Source: Bacteroidia bacterium (lineage in GTDB: Bacteria > Bacteroidota > Bacteroidia > B-17B0 > Aurantibacillaceae). Taken from it: a DNA stretch of 64,000 nucleotides. The position numbers and the translations under genes were made by a program. The stretch is taken from NCBI GenBank assembly GCA_016787895.1, contig JAEUTN010000001.1, forward strand, positions 1 through 64,000, given 5' to 3'. Of the stretch, positions 4,548 to 57,651 are shown one piece after another. Under the pieces are notes generated by a model. The model was given only the letters and a program-made list of their open reading frames with translations, ran no database searches and was not told the origin of the DNA. Position 1 is the stretch's first letter. Each line of letters starts with the position of its first letter.

Positions 4548-4587
4548 GATTTACAATTGACAAATTGTAAATTGTAAATTGTAAATC
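4548..4587. repeat. TTGTAAA microrepeat forming a hairpin between rplQ and rpoA
   Basis: Between rpoA and rplQ, GATTTACAATT is followed four bases later by AAATTGT repeated three times and closing in AAATC. The two arms are complementary, so the transcript can pair 10-11 bp in alternative registers. There is no following T run on the minus strand, so it does not look like a terminator. Confidence 0.6.
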
Positions 4588-54395: not shown

Positions 54396-55736
54396 ATGTT
54401 TGATAATTTACAGGATAAACTCGACCGCGCATTCAAATTACTGAAAGGTCAGGGTAAGATTACCGAAATTAACGTTGCTGAAACGCTCAAAGAGGTGCGC
54501 AAAGCCCTTTTGGATGCCGACGTAAACTATAAGGTCGCTAAAACTTTTACCGATACAGTTAAAGAAAAAGCCCTGGGACAAAATGTACTCACCGCCGTTT
54601 CTCCCGGACAGTTGCTCATTAAAATTACCCACGATGAGCTGGCCACGCTAATGGGCGGCACCAAGGAAGACATCTACCTGGGCGGTAACCCCACCATTAT
54701 TTTAATGAGCGGTTTGCAGGGTTCAGGTAAAACCACCTTCACCGGCAAACTGGCCAATTACCTTAAAACCAAAAAAGGAAAAAAACCTTTGATGGTGGCC
54801 TGCGACGTTTACCGTCCCGCTGCCGTGGATCAGCTGCACGTGCTCGGCGAACAGATTGGCGTTGAAGTATACAGCAATAAGGAAGAAAAAAATCCGGTTA
54901 AAATTGCCGAAGCCGCTATCAAACAAGCCAAGGAAAACGGCAACTCTGTTGTACTGATAGATACTGCAGGCCGTTTAGCGGTGGATGAGGTGATGATGAA
55001 AGAAATTGCCGAACTCAAAGCTTCCGTAAAACCCAACGAAATTTTGTTTGTGGTAGACAGCATGACGGGTCAGGATGCGGTGAACACAGCTAAAGCCTTT
55101 AACGAGCGTTTGAATTTTGACGGGGTGATCTTAACCAAACTCGACGGCGATGCCCGTGGTGGTGCCGCGCTTTCCATTAAATCGGTGGTAAACAAACCCA
55201 TCAAGTTTATTGGTACCGGCGAAAAAATGGAGGCCCTCGATGTGTTCTATCCCGAGCGTATGGCCGACCGTATTTTGGGCATGGGCGACGTGGTGACTTT
55301 GGTAGAGCGCGCTCAGGAACAATTTAACGAAGAAGAAGCCCGCAAACTCAATAAAAAAATTGCCACCAATAAATTTGATTTTAATGACTTTTTAGGCCAA
55401 TTGAATCAAATTAAAAAAATGGGGAATATCAAAGATTTGGTGGGCATGATTCCCGGCATGGGAAAAGCGGTGAAAGATTTAGATGTCGACGATTCCTCTT
55501 TTAAAGGCATTGAAGCCATTATTTTCAGCATGACACCGGCAGAGCGCAGCAAACCTGAGCTCATCAATGGTTCACGCCGCCAGCGTTTGGCCAAGGGCAG
55601 CGGACAAGGCATACAGGAAGTAAACAAACTTTTGAAACAGTTTGAAGAAACCCGCAAAATGATGCGCATGATGAATGATAAAAACGCGATGGCCAAAATG
55701 ATGCGCAACATGCCAAAGGGTATGCCGAAGGGGTAA
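54396..55736 (+). CDS. ffh: Signal recognition particle protein Ffh
   Basis: Ffh binds signal sequences on nascent proteins together with 4.5S RNA. The G domain has SGLQGSGKTTFTGKLA at 105-120, DTAGRLAVDEVMMKEI and LTKLDGDARGGAALS; the M domain has GMIPGMGKAVKDL, RRQRLAKGSGQGIQEVNKLL and a Met-rich end (MMRMMNDKNAMAKMMRN). At 446 residues it is complete. The array of repeats starts directly after its stop codon. Confidence 0.97.
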   Translation: MFDNLQDKLDRAFKLLKGQGKITEINVAETLKEVRKALLDADVNYKVAKTFTDTVKEKALGQNVLTAVSPGQLLIKITHDELATLMGGTKEDIYLGGNPTIILMSGLQGSGKTTFTGKLANYLKTKKGKKPLMVACDVYRPAAVDQLHVLGEQIGVEVYSNKEEKNPVKIAEAAIKQAKENGNSVVLIDTAGRLAVDEVMMKEIAELKASVKPNEILFVVDSMTGQDAVNTAKAFNERLNFDGVILTKLDGDARGGAALSIKSVVNKPIKFIGTGEKMEALDVFYPERMADRILGMGDVVTLVERAQEQFNEEEARKLNKKIATNKFDFNDFLGQLNQIKKMGNIKDLVGMIPGMGKAVKDLDVDDSSFKGIEAIIFSMTPAERSKPELINGSRRQRLAKGSGQGIQEVNKLLKQFEETRKMMRMMNDKNAMAKMMRNMPKGMPKG

Positions 55737-55738
55737 TT

Positions 55739-56275
55739 AGCCACGAATTACACGAATGGAATAAAACGAAAATAAAGCCACGAATTACACGGATTACACG
55801 AATAGAGGCAAGATTACACGAATGGATTAAACGAAAATAAAGCCACGAATTACACTGATTACACAGATAGAGGCAGAATTACACAAATGGAATAATACGA
55901 AAATTTAGCCACGAATTACACGACCCGGTAGCTATCGGGTTACACAGATAGAGGCAGAATTGCACAAATGGAATAATACGAAAAGAAAGCCACGAATTAC
56001 ACGGATTACACGAATAGAGGCAAGATTACACGAATGGATTAAACGAAAATAAAGCCACGAATTACACTGATTACACAGATAGAGGCAGAATTACACGAAT
56101 GGATTAAACGAAAATTATGCCACGAATTGCACGAATGACAATGATAGAGGCAGAATTACACGAATAGAGACAAGATTAAACGAATGGAATAGAACGAAAA
56201 TAAAGCCACCAATTTCACCACCCGATAGCTATCGGGTTACATAGATAGAGGCAGAATTACACGAATAAAAATTTA
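55739..56275 (+). repeat. Array of eight imperfect ~65-bp repeats next to a GxxExxY gene
   Basis: Each unit opens with AGCCACGAATTACAC, continues with GATAGAGGCAGAATTACAC-like sequence and ends TTAAACGAAAATAA or a close variant. Unit starts are 55739 (short, 37 bp), 55776, 55841, 55907, 55988, 56053, 56118 and 56204. Most units are 65-66 bp; the fourth and eighth are longer because both carry an 18-bp palindrome. Units 2-3 and 5-6 are near-identical pairs. The array begins three bases after the ffh stop codon and ends four bases before the GxxExxY start. Confidence 0.85.
55923..56237. repeat. Two copies of an 18-bp palindrome in the array
   Basis: ACCCGATAGCTATCGGGT at 56220-56237 is a perfect palindrome. 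A copy with one change (ACCCGGTAGCTATCGGGT) is at 55923-55940. Both lie at the same internal place of the unit, soon after the AGCCAC start, where other units have TGATTACAC or GGATTACAC. Confidence 0.8.
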
Positions 56276-56279
56276 AAAT

Positions 56280-56702
56280 TTGAGTGAAGAAATTTATACG
56301 CTTTCAGACCCTGAAGAACTTTATGGTCAAAAAGATTTAATCTACAGAAAGGAAACGTATAATTTGATTTCGTGTTGTCTTGAAGTGCATAATGCCCTCG
56401 GCCGGGGATTTTTGGAAGCGGTTTATAAAGATGCCCTTGCCATTGAATTCCAATTAAATGAAATTGACTTTGAACGCGAGAAAAAATTCGAAATCAATTA
56501 CAAAGGTAAGCCTCTACCGCACTATTACCATGCCGATTTTGTGGTGAATGGGAAAATCATCTTAGAAGTAAAGGCACAGGAAAACATCATCGGCAACCAC
56601 TACAAACAACTCATTAATTATCTTGCAGCATCTGACCTCAAACTCGGGTTACTTGTGAATTATGGTGAAAACAGTCTAAAATTTAAACGCGTTATTCTAT
56701 AA
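56280..56702 (+). CDS. GxxExxY family protein (PDDEXK-like nuclease fold)
   Basis: The 140-residue protein starts with TTG, since no ATG occurs in the frame. It has the name-giving motif G43-F-L-E46-A-V-Y49 in NALGRGFLEAVYKDALAIEF. A nuclease-type core follows with Asp86 in HADFVVNGK and Glu96-x-Lys98 in ILEVKAQENI, plus Gln110, as in PD-(D/E)XK enzymes. The biological role of the family is not known. The gene sits between the array on the left and an inverted copy of the repeat on the right, a setting seen repeatedly for this family as far as I recall. Confidence 0.85.
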   Translation: MSEEIYTLSDPEELYGQKDLIYRKETYNLISCCLEVHNALGRGFLEAVYKDALAIEFQLNEIDFEREKKFEINYKGKPLPHYYHADFVVNGKIILEVKAQENIIGNHYKQLINYLAASDLKLGLLVNYGENSLKFKRVIL

Positions 56703-56740
56703 TACTGTACATTCGTGAAATCCATTTTATATGAAATATG

Positions 56741-56769
56741 AATTCGTGTAATCTGTGAAATTCGTGGCT
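56741..56769 (-). repeat. Inverted copy of the array repeat, touching the folD start codon
   Basis: On the minus strand this reads AGCCACGAATTTCACAGATT followed by ACACGAATT, the unit opening found on the plus strand on the other side of the GxxExxY gene. Traces of the pattern (ATTCGTGAAATCC) extend left to about 56711. The gene is therefore framed by inverted repeats. Confidence 0.8.
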
Positions 56770-57651
56770 ATGAATTTGATCGACGGTAAAAAAATATCAC
56801 TTGAAATACAGGAGGAAATTGCGAAGGAGGTAAAAGACCTTTTAAGCAAAGGACATAAAAAACCTCACCTGGCGGCTGTGTTGGTTGGGAACGACGGAGG
56901 CAGCGAAACCTATGTAGCCAGTAAAATCAAAGCCTGCGAAAAGGTGGGGTTTAAATCCACTTTGATTCGTCACCCGGAATACGTGACGGAAGAAAAACTC
57001 TTACAAACCGTTCGTCAATTAAATGAGGACAAGGACGTGGACGGCTTTATTGTTCAGTTGCCCCTGCCCCGGCACATCAACGAACAAAAGGTACTGGAGT
57101 CAATTTTACCTTCAAAGGATGTGGATGGTTTTCATCCCATCAACGTGGGACGCATGGTGCTGAACCTGCCTTGTTACGTGAGCGCTACACCTTATGGTAT
57201 TGTGCAATTGCTGGGCAAATACAAAATTGAAACCAGCGGTAAACGCTGTGTGGTTATAGGGCGCAGCCACATTGTGGGTTCGCCCATGAGTATTTTACTC
57301 GCTAAAAATACGGCTCTCGGCAATGCCACTGTTACCCTTTGCCACAGCAAAACAGAAGATTTAAAATCACACACCACTCAGGCCGACATTATTATTTGCG
57401 CTTTGGGCAGTCCGGAGTTTTTGAAGGCAGACATGGTGAAAGAAGGCGCTGTGGTGATTGATGTGGGCACCACCCGTGTGGCGAGCACCGAAACCAAATC
57501 GGGTTTTAAGCTGAAGGGTGATGTGAAATTTGATGAGGTGGCCCCCAAGTGTTCTTACATCACGCCGGTACCCGGTGGCGTTGGACCCATGACGATTGCT
57601 TCGCTTTTAAAAAACACTTTGTTAGCAGCGAAGAAGGAGATTTATCCTTAA
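56770..57651 (+). CDS. folD: Bifunctional methylenetetrahydrofolate dehydrogenase/cyclohydrolase FolD
   Basis: FolD interconverts 5,10-methylene-, methenyl- and 10-formyl-tetrahydrofolate. The catalytic part has [20 protein letters not shown] (Tyr and Lys of the active site), [20 protein letters not shown] and [13 protein letters not shown]; the NADP domain has [20 protein letters not shown] and [14 protein letters not shown] start at ATG 56770 ([10 protein letters not shown], 293 residues) and not at the GTG 15 nt upstream, which lies in the inverted repeat. Its last 18 or so bases are found again downstream of the second large T9SS gene. Confidence 0.97.

Follow-up and report, generated by a model that had tools for sequence, protein, structure and literature searches.

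GxxExxY proteins form a large and widespread family without known function. Here we report that most GxxExxY genes across a bacterial family are flanked by inverted arrays of short repeated words, that each protein clade has a word of its own, and that the four words counted genome-wide are more numerous in genomes with the matching gene type. The gene and its repeats have the look of a single unit, selfish or co-opted, and we think it somewhat probable that a GxxExxY gene and its flanking words form a cognate gene-repeat unit working like the RAYT/REPIN systems.

A repeat-flanked GxxExxY gene between ffh and folD

We analyzed a 64,000-nucleotide stretch of a Bacteroidia genome (the window), in which a GxxExxY gene and its surrounding repeats fill the interval between the housekeeping genes ffh and folD (Table 1). 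The initial annotation had described eight repeats of ~65 bp to the left of the gene, and a match scan bears this out, with unit starts of the form (A)GCCACGAATTACAC on the + strand (0-2 mismatches) at 55740, 55777, 55842, 55908, 55989, 56054, 56119 and 56205. Successive starts are separated by 37-86 bp, so that ~65 bp is the most frequent spacing and not a fixed period; Tandem Repeats Finder reports 6.2 copies of period 65 at 55746-56165, and within the units a shorter true period is found, CAC[G/T]AAT recurring every 9-10 bp. The reverse complement of the unit opening, previously noted to the right of the gene and ending at the folD start codon, is a 28-nt inverted copy that is 93% complementary to units 2 and 5, contains the one inverted unit-start match (56755-56768) and stops one base before the folD ATG (56770). 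Matches to GCCACGAATTACAC at ≤3 mismatches number 15 in the whole window, whereas shuffles gave 4.7 on average and never more than 10, and chance does not account for them.

Table 1. Features of the window locus
Feature	Position	Strand	Evidence
ffh, upstream host gene	54396..55736	+	ORF; tblastn matches to ffh in relatives; co-directional
Left word array, eight units starting GCCACGAATT(A/T/G)CAC	55739..56270	+	Tandem Repeats Finder, match scan
Palindrome CCCGGTAGCTATCGGG, nested in word unit	55924..55939	.	
Palindrome CCCGATAGCTATCGGG, nested in word unit	56221..56236	.	
GxxExxY gene, 140 aa, TTG start, predicted PD-(D/E)XK nuclease fold (E46, D86, E96, K98)	56280..56702	+	
Right arm, inverted copy of array start, abutting folD	56742..56769	-	
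folD, downstream host gene	56770..57651	+	ORF; orthologues in 40 of 41 genomes; co-directional

Two of the word units contain a palindrome, CCCG(A/G)TAGCTATCGGG, which also breaks up word copies elsewhere in the same genome (C24:331499, C24:862426 and the C21:47020 region) and looks like a second, nested repeat. Other short tandem repeats of the window lie at 210-253 and 4562-4586 (CCCTTCTTTCCTT-type and AAATTGT).

Empty sites, which the initial annotation had proposed looking for in close relatives, were found: cassette-free ffh-folD gaps measure 36 or 48 bp in genus relatives (L178, L173) and 15-38 bp in other families (L182, L183, L186). The genus relatives support the earlier proposal that the block between the two housekeeping genes is an inserted cassette. 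The ffh-folD gap is occupied by a GxxExxY gene at L160 (this genome), L161, L164, L165, L170, L175 and L179. At L161 (G070:C191, folD 99% identical) the window gene is frameshifted and the left array shorter, giving a gap of 637 bp against 1036 bp, and at L172 and L167 word remnants are present and the gene absent. The gap holds a different small ORF of unknown kind at L166, L167 and L169. At L184 (G078:C1), in another family, it is occupied by a four-helix-bundle gene between inverted AGTCATTGG-type words; two unrelated cassettes thus occupy the same ffh-folD position.

The window protein matches the profiles TIGR04256 (E 1.7e-40, 138 bits, cut-off 35) and PF13366 (PDDEXK_3; E 6.4e-37, 126.9 bits, cut-off 22) and no others, PDDEXK_3 being its sole Pfam family. 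Glu46 of the GxxExxY motif, Asp86, Glu96 and Lys98 are invariant in an alignment of 18 diverse sequences, and an AlphaFold (AF2) model from 34 sequences (pLDDT 88) has the PD-(D/E)XK fold, so that alignment and model agree with the initial annotation on the retention of the last three residues. The solved structures nearest to the model are Cas4 SSO0001 (4ic1; Foldseek E 4.5e-4), BamHI (3bam) and other restriction enzymes including BglII, with Hjc (1gef) lower (VIA Z 8.5, 8.2 and 6.0 for 4ic1, 3bam and 1gef). By fold and by its catalytic D and ExK we assign the protein to the PD-(D/E)XK superfamily as a predicted nuclease. A sequence search of the PDB yielded no significant relative. Membership in a known anti-phage defense system was rejected, as PADLOC models gave no match to the protein up to E 1.

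Inverted words follow protein clades

We surveyed 61 genomes of the bacterial family, 44 of which have a GxxExxY match above the cut-off (several being pseudogenes), with 1-8 genes per genome. The flanks of 111 genes were read and 110 loci scored for inverted complementarity against 211 control intervals, whose 99% level was 12; 86 of the 110 exceeded it. The flanking words are short, with a period of 8-10 bp, and point inward in 525 cases and outward in 31 at these loci. They share the rough form YRYNDAK and include CACGAAT, CACTAAT, TACGAAT, CGCAAAG, CACAGAG, CACATAG, CATATAAG, CGCAGAT and others; the second GxxExxY gene of the window's own genome has another word on its two sides, CGCAGAG/CGCAAAG. 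A single repeat for all GxxExxY genes was rejected, there being at least eight word classes. Fourteen loci contained no known RNA family at gathering thresholds. The expectation that one and the same repeat would stand beside GxxExxY genes and be rare elsewhere therefore held in part: the flanking association is family-wide, but the word differs between clades and the window-type word is also common away from the gene, with about 20 copies in this genome.

On a tree of the 111 proteins, the eight word classes require 15 changes, compared to 66.8 with shuffled labels. As the 111 loci represent 53 sites, many of them orthologous, we repeated the test keeping a single row for each combination of site and word type (52 genes) and obtained 11 changes against a shuffled mean of 33.0, with none of 200 shuffles as low, on a tree of few columns and with word classes defined after inspection of the flanks. 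Given the size of the contrast, we do not think that these two features explain it. Joint inheritance of gene and flanks accounts for part of the tree signal. Word type follows the clade of the GxxExxY protein, each clade having a word of its own. Simple slippage of a tandem repeat that happens to lie next to an unrelated gene was rejected on the strength of this clade matching and of the inversion across the gene. Orthologous cassette sites are retained across species, and a single site may hold genes of different clades, so that some positions have been used repeatedly.

The cassettes lie on the strand of both neighbors at 36 sites and antisense to both at two (p 5.4e-9), with median gaps to the neighbors of 73 and 74 nt. 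Gene pairs above 85% DNA identity always occupy the same site, pairs from different sites reaching about 80%, which argues that the gene itself moves rarely and that the dispersed form is the gene-free repeat. With no near-identical copies at different sites among the loci compared, insertion-sequence-like spread of the gene is unsupported; at these loci we saw neither target-site duplication nor precise excision and caught no transposition event. Two arrays, that of the window and a solo one, are not of the same length as in the relative G070, which replication slippage or deletion can also explain. A phage origin was rejected because tblastn found GxxExxY in no phage record; eight plasmid records matched.

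Gene-free copies of the words

We counted four words genome-wide, with reversed-pattern controls near zero. Across the 61 genomes, treated as independent despite their kinship, the median number of CACATAG copies was 22 with the matching gene type and 0 without (p 4.9e-8), the medians for CACKAAT were likewise 22 and 0 (p 1.5e-6), and CATATAAG and TACGAAT were also more numerous with the matching type (p 2.4e-6 and 6.6e-5). The CACATAG difference held when genomes whose GxxExxY genes are all of other types served as the comparison (p 3.5e-6, genomes again treated as independent). In some genomes words are abundant without a matching gene, as in G058 with 42 CACATAG copies. Dispersal had been listed beforehand as a refutation of the association; since copy number tracks the matching gene type, we regard it as part of the pattern.

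All 19 CACATAG elements taken from two genomes are gene-free, 17 being 120-155 bp long and the others 84 and 172 bp. Their 16-nt word arms do not vary in any of the 17 copies that were aligned, and their spacers have diverged; most have a central hairpin adjoining a further word copy, and the interiors of those sampled are mostly unalike. One CACTAAT element (L310) has the same plan. Seven of the 19 sampled elements lie between convergent genes and none at a divergent promoter. Solo copies of CACGAAT in the window's genome are often single arms, not pairs. Several of them adjoin tandem words of the AAGGTTTAGAAGGTTTAGAAAGTT type (L042, L043 and L039), which resemble words beside four-helix-bundle genes.

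Other phyla and the IVP family

A scan of 84,980 species genomes, made with the LGPGLLESV clade only, returned 80 loci that are biased to that clade. Inverted flanks above the control level were present at 60 of 78 loci from other bacteria compared to 2 of 148 controls, with inverted words in Planctomycetota, Cyanobacteria, Chloroflexi, Acidobacteria, a Methylobacter, a desulfuromonad and SAR324. Co-directional cassettes again predominated in these bacteria (53 versus 3). At four acidobacterial loci (L229, L246, L247 and L257) the words point outward.

We found the same arrangement around an unrelated protein family, TIGR02436 (23S rRNA intervening-sequence protein, IVP), a four-helix-bundle family for which we know of no nuclease activity. 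Of 60 genomes of the class, 48 carry it; 22 of 30 loci have inverted flanks above threshold, with private periodic words, compared to 1 of 30 controls, and co-directionality with both neighbors prevails by 23 to 1. Three TIGR02436 genes of the window's genome (L341, L342; G000:C24:384456-416377) are co-directional and each flanked by a different inverted periodic word. As this unrelated family has the same architecture, a nuclease is not required to produce it; nothing else speaks as strongly for the view that the GxxExxY nuclease may not be the cause. IVP genes are known from rRNA intervening sequences with complementary ends, which RNase III excises (PMC4990558). The window cassette was rejected as a member of that class, since it sits between ffh and folD and not in an rRNA gene.

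Discussion

On the reading that we favor, in which gene and words work as one cognate unit, a GxxExxY protein would recognize the word of its own clade through its predicted PD-(D/E)XK nuclease fold and may cut DNA there. It could act in trans on the dispersed gene-free copies, helping them to multiply or persist. The gene itself would remain mostly at fixed, operon-embedded sites and be inherited vertically. Because IVP genes share this architecture, in one case in the ffh-folD gap itself, we only infer that the nuclease drives the spread.

The operon orientation of the cassettes leaves open a role at the RNA level. Like the 23S rRNA intervening sequences, the cassette might lie in operon transcripts with its arms paired as a stem that has the ORF in its loop; RNase III-type processing would then remove it and make the insertion tolerable, the protein being a passenger or acting on the stem. 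The co-directionality and short gaps are consistent with this, as is the IVP family, which is tied to rRNA intervening sequences and shares both architecture and orientation bias. However, co-directionality is also expected if the gene merely needs an operon promoter, PD-(D/E)XK enzymes are mostly DNA nucleases, and such a cassette would explain neither gene-free copies that track the matching gene type nor words between convergent genes; we consider this account unlikely. We give still less credence to passive carriage, in which another enzyme mobilizes the inverted-word elements and these may carry either of two cargoes, a GxxExxY or an IVP gene. Two unrelated proteins in one architecture, and words that persist in genomes without the gene, would be natural outcomes of such carriage, but the word follows the GxxExxY clade and its abundance tracks the matching type and not any GxxExxY gene, a match that a shared mobilizer would not yield. 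A domesticated regulator or genome organizer, which would bind words genome-wide and affect expression or repair with no present mobility, seems to us similarly improbable: patchy gene presence, pseudogenes and empty sites do not suggest a needed host function, even though invariant arms around diverged spacers, the retention of orthologous sites and the avoidance of divergent promoters among the sampled elements would suit it.

If the proteins do act on the words, as the cognate-unit reading holds, a REPIN-like system would be run by a nuclease fold that is not known to serve as a transposase; otherwise, the cassette architecture shared by GxxExxY and IVP genes needs another cause. The match between word and clade offers a concrete candidate substrate for each GxxExxY protein and an origin for short repeats that are dispersed in genomes of Bacteroidota and other phyla. 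A broader proposal, which we put forward as speculation that may well be wrong, is that inverted arrays of private words around short genes are a general class of bacterial element, in which at least two unrelated families, the GxxExxY nuclease and the IVP four-helix bundle, each read and maintain their own word genome-wide. PD-(D/E)XK proteins would then join HUH and DDE transposases as a third type of enzyme that copies repeats. In the portions of the open-licence literature available to us, no description of a GxxExxY-repeat association was found and the papers that name GxxExxY do not treat repeats; the word sequences were not found in print in open-licence full text.

Several known systems share parts of this arrangement. 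Cas4, BamHI and Hjc resemble the GxxExxY protein in fold and in their E-D-ExK residues, but the genetic context of all three is unlike that of the cassette. The 23S rRNA intervening sequences (S23p/IVP) likewise place a short ORF between complementary ends in a transcribed region, and IVP genes outside rRNA also have inverted-word flanks and co-directional neighbors; the rRNA sequences, however, form a single stem within rRNA, whereas the GxxExxY cassette is intergenic, carries word arrays and encodes an unrelated protein. Miniature elements (MITEs) that depend on a DDE transposase are, like the word elements, short and gene-free, and their terminal inverted repeats are also those of a form that carries a gene; the GxxExxY cassette differs in having no DDE transposase, no target-site duplication seen and element interiors that are mostly unalike.

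We draw a close parallel with RAYTs, which are reported to be single-copy, vertically inherited and absent from plasmids, and whose presence in a genome goes with more REPINs (PMC8049555). Both systems have a gene of low copy number that stands between inverted copies of a short dispersed repeat, many gene-free inverted pairs (here the CACATAG elements and one CACTAAT element), a higher repeat copy number where the matching gene is present, and a gene that rarely moves, GxxExxY not being found on phages and only rarely on plasmids. They differ in the repeat, which is a ~25-bp palindrome in REPINs and a tandemly repeated word of 8-10 bp here, and in the several genes that a genome may carry, each clade with its own word. 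They also differ in the enzyme: the RAYT is an HUH/Y1 tyrosine transposase related to IS200/IS605, whereas the GxxExxY protein has a PD-(D/E)XK fold, and because the enzymes are unrelated the GxxExxY unit is not a member of the RAYT family.
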